The notes under the pieces were generated by a model. It did no database searches and was not told the DNA's origin. It saw only the letters and a list, made by a program, of their open reading frames with translations. Source: Opitutaceae bacterium (GTDB lineage Bacteria; Verrucomicrobiota; Verrucomicrobiia; Opitutales; Opitutaceae). From it: a stretch of DNA of 33,436 nucleotides. The position numbers were made by a program, and so were the translations under genes. The stretch is from the NCBI GenBank assembly GCA_003164715.1, contig PLTZ01000041.1, positions 1 through 33,436 on the forward strand. Direction: 5' to 3'. Positions 14,778 to 33,436 of the stretch are shown in pieces; within the stretch, counting starts at the first letter, position 1; the number at the start of each line of letters is the position of its first letter.

Positions 14778-17321
14778 TCAGCGCCACTCGTGCCGCGGGT
14801 AGCGGCGCGAGAGCTCGGGCTTGAGCTTCGGGTAGATCTCCCGCCAGAAGCTCGACAGGTCGTCGGTGACCTGGATCGGCCGATGGTTGGGCGCCAGCAC
14901 CTCGATCTTGACCGGCACCCGGCCGCGCCCGAGCGAGAACCGGCCCTCGACCCCATAGAGCTCCTGGATCCGGGCGCTTAGGACCGGGGGCCCCTCCTTC
15001 GGGTAGGTGAGGCGCGAGCGCCGGCCGTTCGCCATGGTCAGGCGCTCCGGAAGCACGTCCTCCAAGGCCGCCAGCTGCTCGGCGGTGAGCCAGTCCCTAA
15101 GGACGGGCATCACCTCCCGGCCCTTGACGCCTCGCGCCGAGGTTTCGCCGTAGCACACCTGCTCCACGAGCGTCATCCGGTCCGCCGGGGTCACGGGGTT
15201 CACCTCGTACTCGGGGAACCACTCGCAGAGGCGGTTGACCCTCGTGATCCACTGCTCGACCGACTCGTCCCAGGCGTCGATCGTCAGGCGCCCGGCGACC
15301 ACCTCGCGCGCAAGGAGCGCCGCCGCCTGATCGGGCGGCACGTCGTCCGAGCCCGACTTTGACTCAAGGACAAGGTCTCTGAAGCGCCTCTCGCGCCGCG
15401 CCACGACGCGCTTGGCCTGCGGGTCGTAGGTGACCTCGCGCGTGTCCGTGAGCTCCCTGGGGAAGAGCTCCCTGAGCCAGGACTCCTCGACCGCGGTCGC
15501 GAGGTTAAGGATCACGCTCACCTCGCCCGCGCGTCCGCCGACCTCGGTGATCTCGGCGGCGACCAGGAGCGGCGCCTTGCTGATGGCGCTCTCCCGGGCC
15601 AGGAGCCCCCGCCTCCCGTGGATGAGGTCGCACCGCAGCGTGCTCGAGTCGAGGCGGCGGGCGAGGTGGTCGGGGAAGCCGGCGAGGACGCACTTGCGCA
15701 GCTCGGCCCCGTCCGCGCGGCGCTCCGCGGTGTCGAGCCCCTCGGACGCGGCGATCTCGACAAACTGCCCGAAGAGCGGGCCGACCTGGCGGGCCGCCTG
15801 GGCGTGGATCCCGAGCCTGCGGCAGGCGTCGAGGGAGTAGCCGCTGCGGTCGGCGTACCTCCACGCGCGCATGAGCAAGAGAAAGTCGCTTTCGTGCTCC
15901 TCCCCGAGCACCTCCTCGCGCGCGTCCGCGACCTCGCGGGACACGCCCCGAAGCAGGAAGTTTCGGCCCTGCGTGAGGGCGGCCATCATCGCGACCGGGC
16001 GCACGCAGCCGCGGCCCTGGGCCTCCAGGAACATGCGGGCGTAGCGCGGGTGGACGGGAAAGCGCAGCATGCGCCGGCCCACGTCGGTGATCGCGCCCCC
16101 GGGCCCCGCCAGGGCCCCCAGGTCCGCCAGGAGCGCCTCCGCCCGCTCGATCCCGCGGGGCTCCGGCTTCTCGAACCAGTCGAAGCCCAGCGTGTCGACG
16201 ATCCCCGCGACCTTGAGCGTCAGGACGACCTCGGAGAGGTCGAGGCGCTTCACCTCGGGCGTCTCGTGGGCCGGCCGCTGCCCGTGCTCGCGCTCGGTCC
16301 AGAGTCTCACGCAGACCCCGGGCGCCGTGCGCCCCGCCCGGCCGGCCCGCTGTTCGGCGCTCGCCGCGGAGATCTTCTCCACCAAGAGCGTGTTAATCCC
16401 CCGCTGCGGGTCGAAGCGCGCGGCCCTCGCGAGCCCGCTGTCCACCACCGCCGTCACCCCGTCGATCGTGAGCGAGGTCTCGGCGACGTTCGTCGACACG
16501 ATGATCTTGCGGCCCGCGGAGCGCGCCACCGCGCGGTCCTGGGCCTCCGCCGGGAGCTCGCCGTGGAGCGGCAGCGCCGCGAAGCCCCGCAGGGCGCGCG
16601 AGCCCTGGATCGCCTGGATCGTGCGCCCGATCTCGTAGGCCCCCGGCATGAAGACCAGCATGTCCCCAGCGGTCTCTCCGGCCACCCGCTCGCATTCGCG
16701 GGCCGCGACGTCCCACACGGGATCCGTCTCGAAATTCACGGGCTTGGCGAGGTACTCGACCCGCACCGGGTGGGTCCGCCCCTGCGACACGAGGACCTCG
16801 CAGGGCGCGAGGTACCGGCTCAAGGCGCCCGAGTCCAGCGTGGCCGACATGACGGCGAGCTTCAGGTCCGGGCGCCGGTGGCGCTGGATCTCGAGCGCCC
16901 GCGCCAGCGAGATGTCCCCGTAGAGGTGGCGCTCGTGGAACTCGTCGAAAAGGATCGCGCTGACCGAGGCGAGCCCGGGGTCGAACGTCATCTGCCTAAG
17001 CAGGATCCCCTCGGTCACGAAGCGGATCTTGGTGCGCTCGCTGACGCGCGACTCGAGCCGGATCTGGTAGCCGACCTGGTCGCCGAGCTCGGTGCCCACC
17101 TCCTCGGCCACCCGGCGGGCAAGCATCCTGGCGGCGAGCCGGCGCGGCTGCATCACGACCACCTGGCCCCGGTCAAGGAACCCGTGGCTCAGGAGCATCT
17201 GCGGGAGCTGCGTGGACTTGCCGGAGCCGGTCGGCGCCTGGACGATCACCCGACCGCTGGCGCGCAGCGACGCGACAATGGCAGACTCGAGTTCGTAGAC
17301 GGGGAGGTCGCGGTTGGGCAT
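14778..17321 (-). CDS. hrpB: ATP-dependent helicase HrpB
   Basis: HrpB is a DEAH-type superfamily 2 RNA helicase of bacteria whose cellular role is only partly known. The 847-residue product carries Walker A APTGSGKST (29-37), motif Ia QPRRLAA, the DEAH-box variant DEFH (126-129) that is usual in HrpB, motif III SAT (159-161), motif V STNVAETSLTIDGV and motif VI QRAGRAGR. The C-terminal HA2 and HrpB-specific domains end in WREIYPKLKPELSRRYPRHEW, the characteristic HrpB tail. It converges with the GH3 gene (16-bp gap). Its start lies beside a cluster of DnaA-box-like sequences. Confidence 0.95.
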   Translation of the reverse strand: MPNRDLPVYELESAIVASLRASGRVIVQAPTGSGKSTQLPQMLLSHGFLDRGQVVVMQPRRLAARMLARRVAEEVGTELGDQVGYQIRLESRVSERTKIRFVTEGILLRQMTFDPGLASVSAILFDEFHERHLYGDISLARALEIQRHRRPDLKLAVMSATLDSGALSRYLAPCEVLVSQGRTHPVRVEYLAKPVNFETDPVWDVAARECERVAGETAGDMLVFMPGAYEIGRTIQAIQGSRALRGFAALPLHGELPAEAQDRAVARSAGRKIIVSTNVAETSLTIDGVTAVVDSGLARAARFDPQRGINTLLVEKISAASAEQRAGRAGRTAPGVCVRLWTEREHGQRPAHETPEVKRLDLSEVVLTLKVAGIVDTLGFDWFEKPEPRGIERAEALLADLGALAGPGGAITDVGRRMLRFPVHPRYARMFLEAQGRGCVRPVAMMAALTQGRNFLLRGVSREVADAREEVLGEEHESDFLLLMRAWRYADRSGYSLDACRRLGIHAQAARQVGPLFGQFVEIAASEGLDTAERRADGAELRKCVLAGFPDHLARRLDSSTLRCDLIHGRRGLLARESAISKAPLLVAAEITEVGGRAGEVSVILNLATAVEESWLRELFPRELTDTREVTYDPQAKRVVARRERRFRDLVLESKSGSDDVPPDQAAALLAREVVAGRLTIDAWDESVEQWITRVNRLCEWFPEYEVNPVTPADRMTLVEQVCYGETSARGVKGREVMPVLRDWLTAEQLAALEDVLPERLTMANGRRSRLTYPKEGPPVLSARIQELYGVEGRFSLGRGRVPVKIEVLAPNHRPIQVTDDLSSFWREIYPKLKPELSRRYPRHEWR

Positions 17322-17330
17322 GCCGGGGAT

Positions 17331-17401
17331 TGTGAATAACCGGTGAGTTACGTTGCTCCCACGTTATTCACCGAAGCGCGCTGTGAGGGGAATGTGCATA
17401 A
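17331..17401. promoter_or_regulatory. Cluster of DnaA-box-like 9-mers with a hairpin
   Basis: Three 9-mers match the DnaA box TTATNCACA closely: TTATTCACA on the minus strand at 17331-17339 (exact), TTATTCACC on the plus strand at 17364-17372 (one mismatch) and TTATGCACA on the minus strand at 17393-17401 (exact). The first two belong to a perfect 9-bp inverted repeat (GTGAATAAC 17332-17340, GTTATTCAC 17363-17371). An overlapping hairpin pairs 17341-17353 with 17361-17373 at 11 of 13 positions. This is the 5' flank of hrpB and of the structured RNA. It could bind DnaA as a regulatory site; there is no AT-rich unwinding region or dnaA/dnaN gene to argue for a full origin. Confidence 0.35.
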
Positions 17402-17454
17402 GAAAAGCTTCACCCATTCGTAACCCGGCCGCAACCTCACCGCGTTCCTTGATA

Positions 17455-18307
17455 GAACAGTCGCAGCGCGGAGGCCTGAAAAACCCTTCGAAAGCACGGC
17501 TGGGATAATCCCGGGCGACCGGGGAAAGGAAGGTGGCAGCTGGTGCCGCCCTCCCCTCAGCGCAGCAATGTGCTTGTAGGCACTATCACCAGCTCCTCTG
17601 ACCGGTGTCATGACCGGTCAGTGACATGAACTCAGGAGCTGAGCGGCAAGGCGCGATTAGAAACCGCGTCCGAGCCGAGTCAGGCGCGCGGGAGGTTTCG
17701 AACCGCGCGCTGACGCAGTTACCCAGAGGGTATGGCTGCTACTGCGCAGACCAGAACGCAGTCGCGTTTCCCGGCGGGACGACCCCGCCAAAAGGCCTGA
17801 TCCGGTAAAAACGGGTGAGGCGCGCAAGGGAGACGGGGCCGCGGGGAGCGAGCGGGCCAGGCAAATCCCGCGAAAACTCCTCGATTGGGCGGTGTGTTAA
17901 ATCCACGTCACCCAACTGCAAAGCGAACGCAGCCTGAGAGTTAAGAGGTCAGACCCGTAACGCGGGGCAAACGATCGGCCAAAAGCCGATGCCGTCCCCG
18001 TGGCAACGGTGCCGACGCGAAAGATCCGCTACTTGTAGGCGTGTCTGCACCACGTCCGGCGTGCCGCCCCTGGCAGGGGGTGGCCGAACTGGGCGAAGAG
18101 GCCTCACTCGATAGACTCCAATCGGCAACGGTAGGAGCGATCCCGCCATGAGATCGAAAACTTCGCATGCCGCGAAGAGTGGCGTCGGGGAGCATACGGC
18201 CCGCGAAAGCGAGTGCGCCTAACGTATGTGATGGGAAAGAGCGCGTGGCGAGCGCCCACCCCCAAATTTGGCCCCGGAACCGAAAGGTTCCGGGGCCTTA
18301 TTTTTTT
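17455..18307 (+). ncRNA. Large structured non-coding RNA, class unknown
   Basis: About 850 nt without a plausible gene but packed with hairpins that I could pair by eye. Examples are 17510-17514/17519-17523 with a GCGA loop, 17532-17538/17544-17550, the 8-bp stem 17590-17597/17634-17641 enclosing the 9-bp stem 17598-17606/17613-17621, 17773-17778/17784-17789, the 12-position stem 17885-17896/17904-17915 (one mismatch), 17974-17979/17985-17990, 18063-18071/18075-18084, 18161-18166/18172-18177, and 18092-like stem 18192-18198/18223-18229 around a CGC-GAAA-GCG hairpin. It ends in a very strong intrinsic terminator, which fixes the strand and 3' end. The 5' end is uncertain: a possible long-range pairing (17378-17390 with 17553-17563) would extend it upstream. 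Signatures of RNase P RNA, tmRNA, SRP RNA and group II domain V are absent. It may belong to the GOLLD/ROOL/OLE type of large bacterial RNAs, or be new. Confidence 0.6.
18270..18307 (+). terminator. Strong intrinsic terminator with GAAA tetraloop
   Basis: A perfect 12-bp stem, GGCCCCGGAACC (18270-18281) with GGTTCCGGGGCC (18286-18297), capped by GAAA and followed by TTATTTTTTT (18298-18307). This is a textbook Rho-independent terminator on the plus strand. Nothing coding precedes it on that strand for over 2.5 kb, so it must end a non-coding transcript. It also insulates the downstream toxin-antitoxin promoter. Confidence 0.93.
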
Positions 18308-18342
18308 GCGGCGTACGCACTCGTCTCGAGATCGCAGATTTT

Positions 18343-18391
18343 GTGACACTGTTACACTTGACATTCACAATGGCAGGTGACACCGTGACAC
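18343..18391 (+). promoter_or_regulatory. Tandem GTGACAC operator-like repeats of the second Phd-PIN module
   Basis: Four copies of a 7-mer occur as two pairs, each pair with 8-bp spacing: GTGACAC 18343-18349, GTTACAC 18351-18357, GTGACAC 18377-18383 and GTGACAC 18385-18391. Three of the four fit GTG-N-CAC, a dyad around the central base. A TTGACA (18358-18363) between the pairs is a perfect -35 hexamer, though no good -10 follows before the ATG at 18393. The last repeat ends one base before the start codon. The arrangement suggests cooperative autorepression by the antitoxin. Confidence 0.5.
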
Positions 18392-18392
18392 C

Positions 18393-18641
18393 ATGCCTTC
18401 AAGTATAACTATTAAGGAACTTCACGCCACGACCGGCGATCATGTCCGGCGCGCGGGCTCGTCAAGGGCGCCAGTCGTGATCACCGACAGGGGCCAACCG
18501 GTGGCTGTCTTGGCCAATCCATCGCTGCTTACCCCCCGCGAGCGCAAGCGCACGCTCCTGCCGGAATATGAGGCGATGATGGCCGGCCCGGCGGGAAATG
18601 ACATACAGGCCGCTCTCGACGAAATCCGCGGGGATCGCTGA
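18393..18641 (+). CDS. Phd/YefM-family antitoxin (second module)
   Basis: An 82-residue antitoxin of the Phd/YefM family. The N-terminal DNA-binding half shows ITIKELHATTGDHVRRAG followed by PVVITDRGQPVAVLA, the typical helix and beta-hairpin order. The C-terminal half (RERKRTLLPEYEAMMAG, then DIQAALDEIRGDR) is charged and would bind the toxin. The ATG at 18393 directly follows the tandem repeats, so a ribosome-binding site is lacking and a leaderless transcript is possible, as in the first module of this window. The toxin start ATG is 3 bp after the TGA. It shares only the general family pattern with the first antitoxin, so the two modules are not recent copies. Confidence 0.83.
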   Translation: MPSSITIKELHATTGDHVRRAGSSRAPVVITDRGQPVAVLANPSLLTPRERKRTLLPEYEAMMAGPAGNDIQAALDEIRGDR

Positions 18642-18644
18642 CCT

Positions 18645-19079
18645 ATGATCTTTTGCGACACATCGGCGATCGCCAAGCTCTACGTCGTCGAGAAGGAATC
18701 ACCCGCGATGCGGGCGCGCCTGGAAGCGGAAGATCAGGTGTTCGCGTCAGAACTGGTCCGCACCGAACTCATGGGGGTCTTCCACCGGCAGTTGCGTGAG
18801 GGGATCTGGGGGCGGGACAAGTTCATGACCGCGATCCGGCAATTCACCCACGACGACATCGCCGGGTTTTGGACGTGGCTCCCCTTGGGCAGCGCGGTGA
18901 TCGAGGCCGCTGCGCAGGTTTATACGACGCTGCCGGAGTCGGTGTTCCTGCGCTCCGCTGACTGCCTGCACTTGGTGACGGCGCTGCGCCACAGTTTTGC
19001 TGAAATCTACACCTATGACATCCGCCAGTCTGACGCTGCGGGCGTCCTAGGGCTCAAACCCGTGGCCGTCGGCCGCTGA
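18645..19079 (+). CDS. PIN-domain ribonuclease toxin (second module)
   Basis: A 144-residue VapC-like PIN-domain RNase, partner of the antitoxin 3 bp upstream. The acidic metal-binding residues are D5 (FCDTSAIAKLY), E41 (RTELMG), D106 (RSADCLHL) and D125 (YTYDIRQ). Length and motif spacing are normal and there is no frameshift, so the toxin should be functional. The GC content is closer to that of the host genes than in the first module, suggesting longer residence. It lies between the terminator of the large RNA and typA. Confidence 0.88.
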   Translation: MIFCDTSAIAKLYVVEKESPAMRARLEAEDQVFASELVRTELMGVFHRQLREGIWGRDKFMTAIRQFTHDDIAGFWTWLPLGSAVIEAAAQVYTTLPESVFLRSADCLHLVTALRHSFAEIYTYDIRQSDAAGVLGLKPVAVGR

Positions 19080-19174
19080 CACGGCCATAGGAAGCGATTG
19101 TCTGCGATACTGGAGGCAGGTGCATGCCCCGTTGTTTTCCTTCGGATTTCCCTGAGGCCCAGACTCGGCGCTCC

Positions 19175-19209
19175 GGCCGTCCCCGATAGCCCTTGCCATC
19201 GGCACGGCC
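19175..19209 (+). other. Imperfect hairpin between toxin gene and typA
   Basis: GGCCGT (19175-19180) pairs with ACGGCC (19204-19209), and CCGAT (19183-19187) with ATCGG (19198-19202), with a 2x1 internal loop and a 10-nt apical loop. A T-rich stretch (CTTTTTC) follows about 20 nt later, too far for a classic terminator. It may end the toxin transcript or sit in the typA leader. Confidence 0.3.
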
Positions 19210-19256
19210 AGATGGCAGGTTTACGCTCTTTTTCAAAATTGCACGCACGCAGAGAA

Positions 19257-21074
19257 ATGAACCAGCACATACGTAACATCGCCATCATCGCGCACGTCGA
19301 CCACGGCAAAACCACCCTCGTCGACAAGCTGCTGAAGGAGGGCGGGGTCTACCGTGCGAACCAGCTGGTCGAGGAGCGGGCCATGGACTCCATGGACCTG
19401 GAGAAGGAGAAGGGCATCACGATCAAGGCGAAGAACACCTCCGTCCACTGGAAGAACAAGACCATCAACATCGTGGACACGCCCGGCCACGCGGACTTCG
19501 GAGGCGAGGTCGAGCGCGCGCTCCGGATGGTCGACGGGGTGCTGCTCCTCGTGGACGCCTACGACGGACCCCAGGCCCAGACGCGCTTCGTCCTGCGCAA
19601 GGCGCTGGCGCACGGCCTGAAGGTGGTGATCGTGATCAACAAGATCGACCGCGAGAACTCCGAGCCGAAGAAGATGTACGACAAGGTCCAGGAGCTCCTC
19701 CTCGAGCTCAACGCCACCGAGGAGCAGTTCGACGCCCCGGTCGTCTTCGGGTCAGGCCGCGACGGCTACATGATGTACCACCTGGGCGACGAGCGGAAGG
19801 ACATGTCCCCCCTCTTCCAGACGATCCTCGACCACGTCCCTCCCCCCTTCGCGAAGCCGAAGGAGCCGTTCCACATGCTCGTCTCCAACATCGACTGGAG
19901 CGACTACGTCGGAAGGATCGCCGTCGGCAAGATCCTCGGCGGGACGGCCCGCCTCGGCGACACGGTCTATGTCATCCGCCACTCCGACGGCTCGAAGACC
20001 CGGGCCAAGATCACCAAGGTGATCGAGTTCACGGGCCTCGGCACGGCCGAGGCGCAGTCAGGCACCGCCGGCAACATCGTCGGCCTCTCGGGCTTCGAGG
20101 ACATCGACATCGGCGACACGATCGCCGCGAGCGAGGACCAGCACGCCCTGCCCTTCACCCAGATCGACCCGCCGACCCTCGAGATGCAGTTCTGCGTCAA
20201 CGACGGGCCGCTCGTGGGCCGCGAGGGCAAGCTCGTCACCTCGCGCCAGCTGAGGGACCGCCTTTACCGGGAATTGAAGACCAACGTCTCCATCAAGGTC
20301 GAGGACACCGACTCGGCCGGCGTCTACAACGTGAAGGCCCGCGGGGCCATGCAGATCGCCGTCCTCGTTGAGACGATGAGGCGCGAGGGCTTCGAGCTCC
20401 TCGTCTCCCGGCCGACTGTGATCGAGAGGGTCGAGAACGGCCAGCGCCTGGAGCCCTACGAGACCGTCTGGATCGAGGTGCCCGACGAATGCGTCGGGGC
20501 GATCGTCCAGAACCTGGCCAACCGCAAGGGCCTGATGACCAACATGGAGAAGCTCTCCCACTCGACGATGATCGAGGCGACGATCACGACCCGGGGCCTC
20601 ATCGGCTTCGAGATCGACGTCGTGAACGCGACCAGCGGCCGCGGGGTCCTAAGCCACCTCTTCAAGGAGTACGCGCCCTACGCGGGCGAGGTGCTGACGC
20701 GGCTCACGGGCACAATCCTGGCCACGGAGGCCGGCGTCACCACCGCCTACGCCCTCGAGAGCGCGCAGGAGCGCGGCATGCTCTTCGTCAGCCCGGGCGA
20801 GGAGGTCTACGAGGGGATGATCGTCGGCGAGAACCCCCGCAACGAGGACGTGCCGGTCAACGCCGTGCGCGCCAAGCAGCTCACGAACTTCCGCTCGCAG
20901 GGCGAGGGCAAGGGCATCCAGCTGACGCCCGCCACCAAGCTCTCGCTCGAGCGCGCGATCGAGTACATCGCCGCGGACGAGTTCGTCGAGGTGACGCCGA
21001 AGAACCTGCGCTTAAGGAAGCGGATCCTGAGCGCCGTCGAGCGGCGCAAGCAGGACCGCAGGAGCGCGGGCTAG
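19257..21074 (+). CDS. typA: Ribosome-associated GTPase TypA/BipA
   Basis: TypA/BipA is a translational GTPase related to EF-G that binds the ribosome and helps 50S assembly and stress adaptation. The 605-residue product has the normal length. G motifs are complete: AHVDHGKTT (12-20), the switch region around [24 protein letters not shown] and INKIDRE. Domain V and the family-specific C-terminal domain follow ([40 protein letters not shown]). I use the ATG at 19257: the frame is open 53 codons further upstream, but the family starts at [17 protein letters not shown] and an AGAGAA stretch just precedes this codon. Confidence 0.96.
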
Positions 21075-31162: not shown

Positions 31163-31933
31163 TCATTGGGACTTTGCCTTGGCCGGCGCGTCATCGGCCT
31201 CGGAGACGCCACCTGACCAGCGTTTGCTGCGCCCGACGAAGGTGACGACGTGACAGTGATGCAGCAGGCGATCGAGGATCGCCGTGGCGACGGGGACATC
31301 CTGGAAGAGCTTTCCCCAGTCTTCGAGAGGCCGGTTGGACGTGATCAGGATCGAGCGCTTCTCATAGCGGCGCATCACGATCTCCAGGAGGTATTCTCCG
31401 GAGCGCTGCGGCAGATGCTTGCCCGCAAAGTCCTCGATGATCAGGAGGTCGGGTTTCAAGTACTGGCGCAGCGCGAGCTCCTTTTCCTGCATCGCCTCCT
31501 CGGCGATCAAGTCCCGCACCAGGTCGAAGATCGATCGGCGCAGGACCCGGAAGCCCTGCTTAATGGCCTCGTGGCCGATGGCCTGGCTTAGGTGGGACTT
31601 TCCGAGCCCGGGTTGCCCTAGGAAGAGGGCGCAGCGGGCCTCGCGGATAAACTGGCAGGTGGCCAGTTCGTAGATCTCCTTTCGGGGGATCTTCGGATTG
31701 AAGCTCCAATCGAAGTTTTCCAGGGTCTTCGACTCGTGGAAGCCCGCGGCCCGGCTGCGGGTCGCCAGTTTGTTCTGCCTTCGGATGTTGAGTTCGTCCT
31801 GAAGGGCTAGCGTGAGGAACTCCTCGTGGGAGAGCCTGCTGGCTAAGGCCTCGCTTAGCCGGACATCGAGTGTCCGCGCCATGCCGAGGAGCCGCAGTTC
31901 ATTGAGGGTGGATTCGAGTTGGGTGTTGTTCAT
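31163..31933 (-). CDS. istB: IS21-family ATPase IstB
   Basis: IstB is the AAA+ ATPase that helps IstA choose target DNA and stimulates strand transfer. The 256-residue product is complete: an N-terminal helical domain (LESTLNELRLLGMARTLD), Walker A GQPGLGKSHL, Walker B LLIIEDFAG, a sensor-I-like ILITSNRP and a C-terminal lid (AILDRLLHHCHVVTF). The gene lies on the minus strand and its ATG overlaps the istA stop by 4 bp, the normal coupled arrangement. The last ~15 residues are a charged, Ala-rich extension. Confidence 0.95.
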   Translation of the reverse strand: MNNTQLESTLNELRLLGMARTLDVRLSEALASRLSHEEFLTLALQDELNIRRQNKLATRSRAAGFHESKTLENFDWSFNPKIPRKEIYELATCQFIREARCALFLGQPGLGKSHLSQAIGHEAIKQGFRVLRRSIFDLVRDLIAEEAMQEKELALRQYLKPDLLIIEDFAGKHLPQRSGEYLLEIVMRRYEKRSILITSNRPLEDWGKLFQDVPVATAILDRLLHHCHVVTFVGRSKRWSGGVSEADDAPAKAKSQ

Positions 31934-33436
31934 GGTGGTAAAGGGATCCGATAGGAGGCCATTTCGCGGATCAGCGGATGGGTTTCCAGGAAGTCGATCT
32001 GGACGACGTTCTCGGGCTCGGCCAGCGCGGCCCTGACGTCCGAGAGCCTCCAGCCCGCCCGCTCGAGCGCCTTGCCCGCGGCCACCTCCAGCCGGTCATG
32101 GGGATTGGCCCTGGCGAGCGACAGGAGTCCCTGAAGGACGCGCACGCCCTCGATGCCGCGGTGCTTGTGCATCGCGAGCGCCCAGGCTCCCGCGCACGGG
32201 CCGATCTCCTCGCAGCGACTGAGCATGTAGCTGACGCCGCGGTCGGCGATCCGGCGCTTCAGGGGATGGATGTGCGCGGCGTCGGTCGCGCTGCGCCCGG
32301 ACTCGGCCCGGGCATGCACCGTCACCGGCTCCATCTTGAGCGTGTAGATGCGCACCAGACGCGATTCGCCACGCACCCACAGCTCGCGGCCCAGGTACTC
32401 CGGTGGCACCGAGTAATACGACCGGTCAAATTCGACGTGGCCGTCCAGATGCACCTTGCGTTTGCCCTCGGTGAAGCTCGGAAAGAGGCTCGCCGGCAGA
32501 GGCCGCAGAGCGGCCCTCTCAACCTCCAGGAAGTGCTTTCCCACCTGCTGGCGGGTCGTCCCGTGGATTCGGGTGTCCGCCACGTTCCTCTCCCAGTCCA
32601 AGAGGAACATGTTCTCGGCCGCCAGGCTTTCGAAGGAGCGGCCCTTGAGCGCATTTTCCTGCACGAAGTCGACGCCGCGCTCCACCCGTCCCTTGTGGCG
32701 GGGAGTCGCCGGCTTTGTCGGCAGGATCACCGTCCCGTAGTGCTCCGCAAACGCGGCCAGCTTCGGGTTGAGTTCCGGATCAAACCAGTCCGGGTGAAGC
32801 ACCGCTGCCTTAAGGTTGTCCGGGCATACCGTGGCCGGGACCCCGCCCATGTAACGGAACGCATTCTCCAGGCACCGAAGGAACGTTTCCGTCTTCTGGT
32901 TCCAGACGACCTCGCTGTATCCCTTCCCCGAGAAGCACATCACTGCACGGAACACGTGCGGCCGGCGCCGGCGTTCGCCCTCCTGCTTGATCCAGGCCCC
33001 GAGCCCAAAATCCACCTGCATCTGCTCTCCCGGAGCAAATTCCATCCGCCGGTATGGCACCGGCGCCGCTCGCTCCAACTTGCGCACATAGCGCTTCACC
33101 GACTGGTACGCCCCGACGAAGCCGTGATCGCGCACAAGGTCCTGGTGGATCCGCTTCGCCGAGAGCTGCTGCTCCAACGCCGCCACGATCACGTCTTTCC
33201 ATGGCTCGCACAGGCTGATACTCGCCTTCGCCGCAGCCACCGCCGCGTTCACGATCGTTTCCGGCTCCGATGCCAGCGCACCAGCCGACCCGGGGGACAG
33301 GGTGGTATACTTTGACGGCTCAGGCGGCGTATTCTCGGGGCAATCGCTATGCGATTCCACGCCTTCGACGGCCTCAGAGCCGGGGGACGGGGTGGTATAC
33401 TTTGCGTACCGCCGAACCGTCTTTCGACTCAGCTTT
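31930..33436 (-). CDS. istA: IS21-family transposase IstA (N-terminus outside window)
   Basis: IstA is the DDE transposase of IS21 elements. The catalytic rve domain is complete: first D in MQVDFG (codon 33010-33012), second D in VCPDNLKA (32818-32820) and E in KGRVERG (32680-32682). The C-terminal beta-barrel and tail end at 31930. A GTG at 33360 could be taken as a start, but the frame stays open to the window edge and there encodes KLSRKTVRRYAK, the recognition helix of the N-terminal helix-turn-helix of IstA, so the gene is partial at its 5' end. Oddly, the linker after this helix contains two KYTT(P/L)SPGS repeats 30 codons apart, encoded by copies of the element's end repeat. Confidence 0.93.
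   Translation of the reverse strand, partial: KLSRKTVRRYAKYTTPSPGSEAVEGVESHSDCPENTPPEPSKYTTLSPGSAGALASEPETIVNAAVAAAKASISLCEPWKDVIVAALEQQLSAKRIHQDLVRDHGFVGAYQSVKRYVRKLERAAPVPYRRMEFAPGEQMQVDFGLGAWIKQEGERRRRPHVFRAVMCFSGKGYSEVVWNQKTETFLRCLENAFRYMGGVPATVCPDNLKAAVLHPDWFDPELNPKLAAFAEHYGTVILPTKPATPRHKGRVERGVDFVQENALKGRSFESLAAENMFLLDWERNVADTRIHGTTRQQVGKHFLEVERAALRPLPASLFPSFTEGKRKVHLDGHVEFDRSYYSVPPEYLGRELWVRGESRLVRIYTLKMEPVTVHARAESGRSATDAAHIHPLKRRIADRGVSYMLSRCEEIGPCAGAWALAMHKHRGIEGVRVLQGLLSLARANPHDRLEVAAGKALERAGWRLSDVRAALAEPENVVQIDFLETHPLIREMASYRIPLPP
33289..33314. repeat. IS end-repeat copy inside istA (inner)
   Basis: Inverted copy of the 31052-31077 unit with 25/26 identity (GGGTGGTATACTTTG end). 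It is in frame within istA and encodes KYTTLSPGS on the minus strand. Confidence 0.75.
33379..33404. repeat. IS end-repeat copy inside istA (outer)
   Basis: Inverted copy of the 31052-31077 unit with 25/26 identity, exactly 90 bp (30 codons) from the inner copy. It encodes KYTTPSPGS in istA. It follows directly on the helix-turn-helix codons, so it is not at the element's outer tip. Confidence 0.75.

Follow-up and report, generated by a model that had tools for sequence, protein, structure and literature searches.

A stretch of DNA from an Opitutaceae bacterium (GenBank assembly GCA_003164715.1, contig PLTZ01000041.1, positions 1-33,436 of the forward strand; the whole 33,436 nt is called the window below) carries a gene for MISL RNA, preceded by a cluster of sites that resemble DnaA boxes. 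That the feature at 17444-18307 is a MISL RNA gene, a member of the catalogued class RF03079, is as good as certain. It is an ordinary member of a known orphan RNA class; what is not ordinary is its wiring. The explanation that best accommodates the evidence as a whole, and which we regard as reasonably probable on comparative grounds, is that DnaA binds the boxes and sets MISL transcription, and that the RNA acts in trans.

The class assignment is based on a cmscan match to the Rfam MISL model (528 bits, E 1e-159), well above the curated (gathering) cut-off of 274.6 bits, which covers the model end to end. Laying the RF03079 consensus on the window gave 174 pairs in 30 uninterrupted helices, with 8 pairs non-canonical, such that the whole consensus structure is present. 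The match is full length with the same consensus structure, no tested feature sets the window's RNA apart from the class, and the genome itself holds one MISL copy. In a permissive cmscan of 17200-18500, no other Rfam family scored above its cut-off, and RNase P, tmRNA, SRP, group II intron, OLE, GOLLD, ROOL, and HEARO were absent from the seven matches at E ≤5, in agreement with an earlier note on this DNA that had seen no RNase P, tmRNA, SRP, or group II signature. That note had proposed a large structured RNA, either of a possible new class or an unrecognised member of a known one. The structured RNA is supported by the Rfam match, the fold energy, and covariation; the new class is not, given 528 bits versus 274.6; and the unrecognised member was the right choice, the class being one that the note did not list. 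The scan against all of Rfam that it called for did return a strong match, but to a class for which no function turned up rather than to a common RNA. OLE, GOLLD, ROOL, HEARO, and similar RNAs are like MISL in size class and elaborate fold, without a Rfam match in 17200-18500; OLE, GOLLD, and ROOL are described in a part of PMC12286853 as forming homo-oligomers. The literature searched held no functional lead for MISL, which is not to say that none is in print, and the single paper there that mentions both MISL and DnaA is, by its title, on another subject.

Conservation across relatives starts at about 17444, ∼60 nt 5′ of the Rfam start, and the conserved unit of ∼864 nt runs from there to 18307 on the plus strand (Table 1). 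The RNA is presumed to start near 17444, as suggested by this conservation, an outer stem, and a presumed promoter just before it. The promoter core has a weak likeness to the sigma-70 consensus, and a sigma-70 consensus scan listed no promoter at the expected place upstream of 17444. The unit folds with −412.7 kcal/mol (z −9.5 versus 20 dinucleotide shuffles), and overlapping ORFs are short: the longest that lies in it, in whole or in part, has 87 aa. The antisense ORFs of MISL loci cluster among relatives, which we read as a by-product of RNA conservation. At the 3′ end, the terminator is paired in 1212 of 1313 alignment cells with 245 both-side changes, and its stem (18270-18297) is the sole plus-strand terminator listed in 17300-18400, where the scan found three on both strands and shuffles average 1.7.

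Much of what the earlier note had read from this interval is retained. It described 17455-18307 as non-coding, densely folded, and terminator-ended, all of which stands, with a start that lies ∼11 nt too far 3′. The ORF lengths bear out its statement that no credible gene is present, and the 12-bp, GAAA-capped terminator with its T-run was confirmed. The nested pair that it saw at 17590-17641 is also present, as an 8-bp helix (17590-17597/17634-17641) and a 9-bp helix (17598-17606/17613-17621), the latter with the top covariation sum among the antiparallel runs scored. The covariation among homologues that it wished to see was found in the nested helix, the terminator, and five long-range helices.

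Table 1. Features of the MISL locus in the window; box positions are relative to the conserved 5′ end
Feature	Position	Strand	Remarks
hrpB (DEAH-box RNA helicase), divergent neighbour	14778..17321	-	context
DnaA-box-like site 1, TGTGAATAA (= TTATTCACA on minus strand)	17331..17339	-	−113, preferred position
DnaA-box-like site 2, TTATTCACC	17364..17372	+	−80; one mismatch to TTATNCACA
DnaA-box-like site 3, TGTGCATAA (= TTATGCACA)	17393..17401	-	−51
Presumed promoter core: CTTCAC 17408-17413, CAACCT 17432-17437	17408..17437	+	conserved columns of relatives; inferred
5′ hairpin GTTC-CTTGATA-GAAC	17444..17458	+	loop 17450-17453 can pair with 17585-17588
5′ domain, outside Rfam model	17459..17502	+	stem 17459-17463/17497-17501
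MISL RNA, RF03079	17503..18256	+	model 1-751 of 751, 528 bits
Pseudoknot 17540-17544 x 17750-17754	17540..17754	+	548/554 cells paired, 19 both-side changes
Pseudoknot 17609-17612 x 17625-17628	17609..17628	+	433/443 cells paired, 91 both-side changes
Pseudoknot 17734-17739 x 17929-17934	17734..17934	+	657/666 cells paired, 57 both-side changes
Pseudoknot 17916-17920 x 18034-18038	17916..18038	+	537/553 cells paired, 54 both-side changes
Pseudoknot 18144-18149 x 18179-18184	18144..18184	+	649/666 cells paired, 53 both-side changes
Intrinsic terminator, 12-bp stem, GAAA loop, T-run	18270..18307	+	covaries among relatives

Beyond the Rfam MISL model, the analysis adds a domain at the 5′ end and the boxes upstream of it; to the fold, it adds five long-range helices and a probable contact made by the loop of the 5′ hairpin. 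The structure set comprised 111 sequences, thinned from the 126 of 154 that passed end, motif, and length filters; it equals 41 effective sequences at 80% identity, and many members come from metagenome-assembled genomes. Runs of at least four pairs were scored for covariation sum and percentage paired. The covariation sum alone separates real from control runs poorly. With ≥95% paired and a sum ≥10, nine antiparallel runs pass and no parallel control does, as compared to 16 and three, respectively, at 90% paired and a sum of 5. Five of the nine passing runs lie outside the Rfam model line, and each crosses the nested fold. By covariation, MISL is shown to consist of a nested fold and five predicted long-range helices outside it. 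Since covariance models carry no pseudoknots, the original description by the MISL authors may already draw some of the five.

The ∼60 nt that relatives share 5′ of the Rfam start consist of a hairpin, GTTC-nTTGAnA-GAAC, followed by a stem-closed domain. The 5′ motif is present at 136 of the 138 loci with enough upstream sequence, and the two loci without it by the pattern used (L202 and L146) both have near-forms. The domain stem is paired in 490 of 553 cells, as compared to a shuffle average of 62%, and shows 117 both-side changes. The hairpin stem is paired in 432 of 444 cells with zero compensatory changes, and covariation is therefore uninformative on this stem. A contact of the hairpin loop with 17585-17588 is probable, resting on one covarying pair. 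Positions 17450-17452 pair with 17588-17586 without real variation, and no single pair outside the Rfam model covaries more strongly than 17453-17585 (TA 53, AT 34, TG 9, CG 5, GC 3, and an unpaired TC 5). The six-position run of the contact is paired in 533 of 666 cells (shuffles 72.6%) with a covariation sum of 17.5, where parallel control runs reach up to 24.7, and it fails the test of paired percentage and covariation that the five long-range helices pass. A construct that begins at the Rfam start would lack the conserved domain and a hairpin that probably touches the core.

A different reading of the GTTCnTTGAnA motif is that of a boxA like those of rRNA leaders, through which the transcript would be antiterminated. 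It resembles the own genome's 16S rRNA leader element GGCTCTTTGAAATT, in a comparison limited by 16S matches in only 4 of 23 genomes, and several distant MISL members have exact TCTTTGA. However, 110 of 135 sequences have C or A as the central base of the motif, and loop base 17453 varies together with 17585, a pairing that would explain the conservation. Because the 5′ loop covaries with an internal strand, we lowered the boxA reading to highly improbable. A LexA site at the 5′ hairpin, where GTTC/GAAC half-sites stand 7 apart, was considered and dropped; among the papers listed, none was by its title on a Verrucomicrobia motif.

One viral_contigs record from IMG/VR (L203) contains an exact MISL 24-mer, and its first 480 bases match positions 152-624 of our own 760-position alignment profile, in a fragment that scores below the Rfam cut-off. 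The same contig carries at 743-2347 genes typical of single-stranded RNA phages, for a maturation protein (PF03863, E 7e-28; labelled head maturation protease in PHROGs) and a head protein. As a DNA stage is absent from the life cycle of these phages, L203 is taken to derive from RNA, which suggests that a MISL transcript was present in the sample. The join between MISL and phage is probably an artefact of copying or assembly. A phage or plasmid origin of MISL was rejected: the MISL 24-mer was found in no phage or plasmid record, and the one viral_contigs match is chimera-like. A part of PMC10925082 indicates that windows of MISL RNA were chemically probed in the Ribonanza set.

MISL matches were found in 26 of 57 near relatives, in 130 of 252 family genomes (94 of 165 of good quality), in 24 of 288 phylum genomes (23 over the cut-off), where the class is thus patchy, and in none of 14 control genomes; these scans used strict filters on many draft genomes, and absences are partly technical. 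The 24-mer pattern, by which alone phyla beyond Verrucomicrobiota were searched, matched at least 118 stretches in genome_contigs, and the 80 titles listed among these matches bear names that we take to belong to Verrucomicrobiota. Some genomes have two copies, e.g., G201 and G366. Four genomes (G008, G461, G469, and G335) have matches cut at about model position 381/382 near contig ends; perhaps assemblies break inside MISL there, due to a second near-identical copy, although the model itself may set the precise point of the cut.

Divergent hrpB and typA/bipA are frequent neighbours of MISL in Opitutaceae, on either side of it: of 41 loci, 25 have a member of the HrpB cluster and 17 one of the typA/bipA cluster in the fetched flanks. 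The nearby genes at ten loci of other families differ as judged by eye, and no protein gene looks to be a conserved neighbour of MISL. The link to hrpB suggested in the earlier note is better seen as local synteny: HrpB-type matches occur in 268 of 288 phylum genomes at E 0.001 (235 over the family cut-off), and a gene so nearly universal in the phylum is uninformative as a partner. In addition, in the four distant genomes in which both could be placed (G055, G077, G209, and G323), hrpB is elsewhere than at MISL. Since neighbours differ between families and HrpB is near universal, MISL looks like a free-standing gene with its own predicted terminator. In the window, a pair consisting of a Phd/YefM-type antitoxin and a PIN-domain toxin (18393-19079) separates MISL from typA/bipA (19098-21074). 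In the other 11 of 12 relatives listed, typA is closer behind MISL, and the toxin-antitoxin pair may therefore be an insertion. An IS21-type element with an IstB-like ATPase (PF01695) and a transposase with an integrase core lies at 31163-33360 on the minus strand.

The region upstream of MISL was analyzed in 135 distinct sequences from 138 usable loci; L202 and L146 were left out for their 5′ motif and one more by a length/identity filter. A motif search of −140 to −38 with 80 random seeds and a capped number of sites gave as its best result [TG]GTG[AC]A[TC]AAC, the reverse complement of TTATNCACA, which we take to be the DnaA-box consensus. Sites with at most one mismatch occur at least once in 121 of the 135 regions, at least twice in 90, and at least three times in 52. 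The corresponding values are 1.4%, 0.035%, and 0 for 17,360 equally sized genomic windows, the background having been drawn from three genomes of Opitutaceae and one from elsewhere in the order. The question of composition is answered by dinucleotide shuffles: relaxed boxes number 1.61 per 92-nt region as compared to 0.015 in shuffles. Two or more relaxed boxes were found in 69 of 135 regions versus none of 25,980 overlapping genomic windows. The strict form TTATNCACA is present in the 320 nt before MISL at 45 of 135 loci (another selection than the 135 upstream regions, equal in size by chance), or 1.41 per kb, whereas the rest of the same loci has two sites in 737,145 bases. The sites are spread over the groups defined by the 5′ motif, with at least one in 73 of 80 sequences of group C, 25 of 30 of group A, and 23 of 25 of group T.

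The boxes also have preferred places. To within about one base, the relaxed form peaks at −80 on the plus strand and at −113, −62, and −51 on the minus strand, and the window has three of these four preferred places. A one-mismatch site at −80 to −82 in the orientation of site 2 occurs in families f1, f4, f9, f20, f21, f38, and f45, among which the genes next to MISL differ; in f22 and f23, the DnaA-like site is elsewhere. A facing pair, GTGAATAAC-N-GTTATTCAC, was found at one place each in four of ten genomes, at MISL in all four; the remaining six have no exact facing pair, and a reversed-pattern control gave 0. One-mismatch sites are lacking in 14 of 135 regions, nine of which are also without the relaxed form. 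Boxes are thus not needed for a MISL gene to exist, and a minority of MISL genes would be wired otherwise. Copies with neither form in the 92 nt upstream include L044, L136, L129, L103, L104, and L175. The genomes of L044 (the second copy of G201) and L136 also hold a box-bearing copy (L033 and L095, respectively), and the box-less copies are possibly a differently regulated paralogue.

The same 9-mer is found before dnaA itself. Of 13 genomes (L231-L243), 10 have TTATTCACA at a distance of 57-66 nt upstream of the dnaA match, and it is therefore probably the box used by these DnaA proteins. This distance is the place of classical autoregulation. Of the other three regions, one is limited to 49 nt of upstream sequence, the second has its box at a greater distance, and the third has a variant near −60 together with a box further up. 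In the ten genomes, the box before dnaA, TGTGAATAA, is often joined by a second at about −330 to −357. Two features expected of a DnaA target are seen at MISL, namely clustered 9-mers that match TTATNCACA and a motif shared with a classical DnaA target of these genomes. The two settings differ in that the dnaA regions, of up to 380 nt, hold one to three relaxed boxes whereas MISL has up to five in 92 nt, and in that the product of MISL is an RNA. Another protein with a DnaA-like preference could also read the 9-mer.

That the boxes serve divergent hrpB and not MISL was considered in view of their proximity, since the window's hrpB starts ten bases from box 1 and an HrpB cluster member is frequent in the flanks, as described above. 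However, a DnaA-like site is present at all 10 of the MISL loci inspected from other families, where the nearby genes differ (FolC-, RseP-, PfkB-, and CysS-like by eye, among others), and four genomes have hrpB elsewhere than at MISL. We hold this reading to be very unlikely.

The density of boxes upstream of MISL also raises the idea that this region is the chromosomal origin and MISL an origin transcript. We give this scarcely any credence and rejected oriC at MISL, as the origin-type (negative-to-positive) switch in GC skew is far from MISL in four of four genomes sampled: G320 (switch 1.26-1.89 Mb, a noisy trend with, e.g., the 1.68 Mb sample off it; MISL 3.14), G072 (from 4.05 Mb to 4.32, where the contig ends; MISL 2.45), G015 (0.9-1.2 Mb; MISL 4.39), and G055 (0.76-0.95 Mb; MISL 1.44). 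Skew was taken from 20-kb samples every 0.08-0.45 Mb, which local inversions could mislead. MISL is nearer the terminus-type switch in the three Opitutaceae (G320, G072, and G015), and a general terminus-side location was rejected because it fails in G055. In one-contig genomes, dnaA does not adjoin MISL, the nearest being about 75 kb away in G437.

In E. coli, datA and DARS are sites of DnaA titration and DnaA reactivation, respectively. The box cluster could likewise be a site for titrating or reactivating DnaA, with MISL transcription being incidental or serving to tune it. Such a site would fit the density of boxes far from the origin indicated by GC skew in four genomes and a facing pair that is unique genome-wide in four genomes, but the distances and orientations of the boxes relative to the RNA 5′ end are kept across families, which a titration site would not need. 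We consider this alternative unlikely, though less so than the others.

Our preferred model remains that DnaA would bind the predicted boxes upstream of the presumed promoter and so set MISL transcription. The preferred box places end just above the −35, more like an upstream activator site than a repressor lying over the promoter. The amount of MISL RNA would then follow the level or nucleotide state of DnaA, i.e., replication initiation, and the RNA would work in trans as a stable folded molecule, for which protein binding or ribozyme activity is the most likely mode. That MISL was not found in 122 of 252 family genomes, a number that drafts and strict filters explain in part, makes a core role in replication unlikely. 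By description, MISL may be likened to CcnA of Caulobacter, in another phylum, which a part of PMC8959179 presents as a non-coding RNA tied to cell-cycle regulators.

Large structured bacterial RNAs that lack an assigned function are promising sources of new RNA biochemistry. From these comparisons, we lean towards viewing MISL as a large pseudoknotted RNA under direct DnaA control, coupled to replication and kept together with its box array through several Verrucomicrobiota families. The conserved DnaA-box array is the first testable clue to the role of MISL, namely by what and when it is switched, and, if true, control by DnaA would give the first handle on the function of the class.
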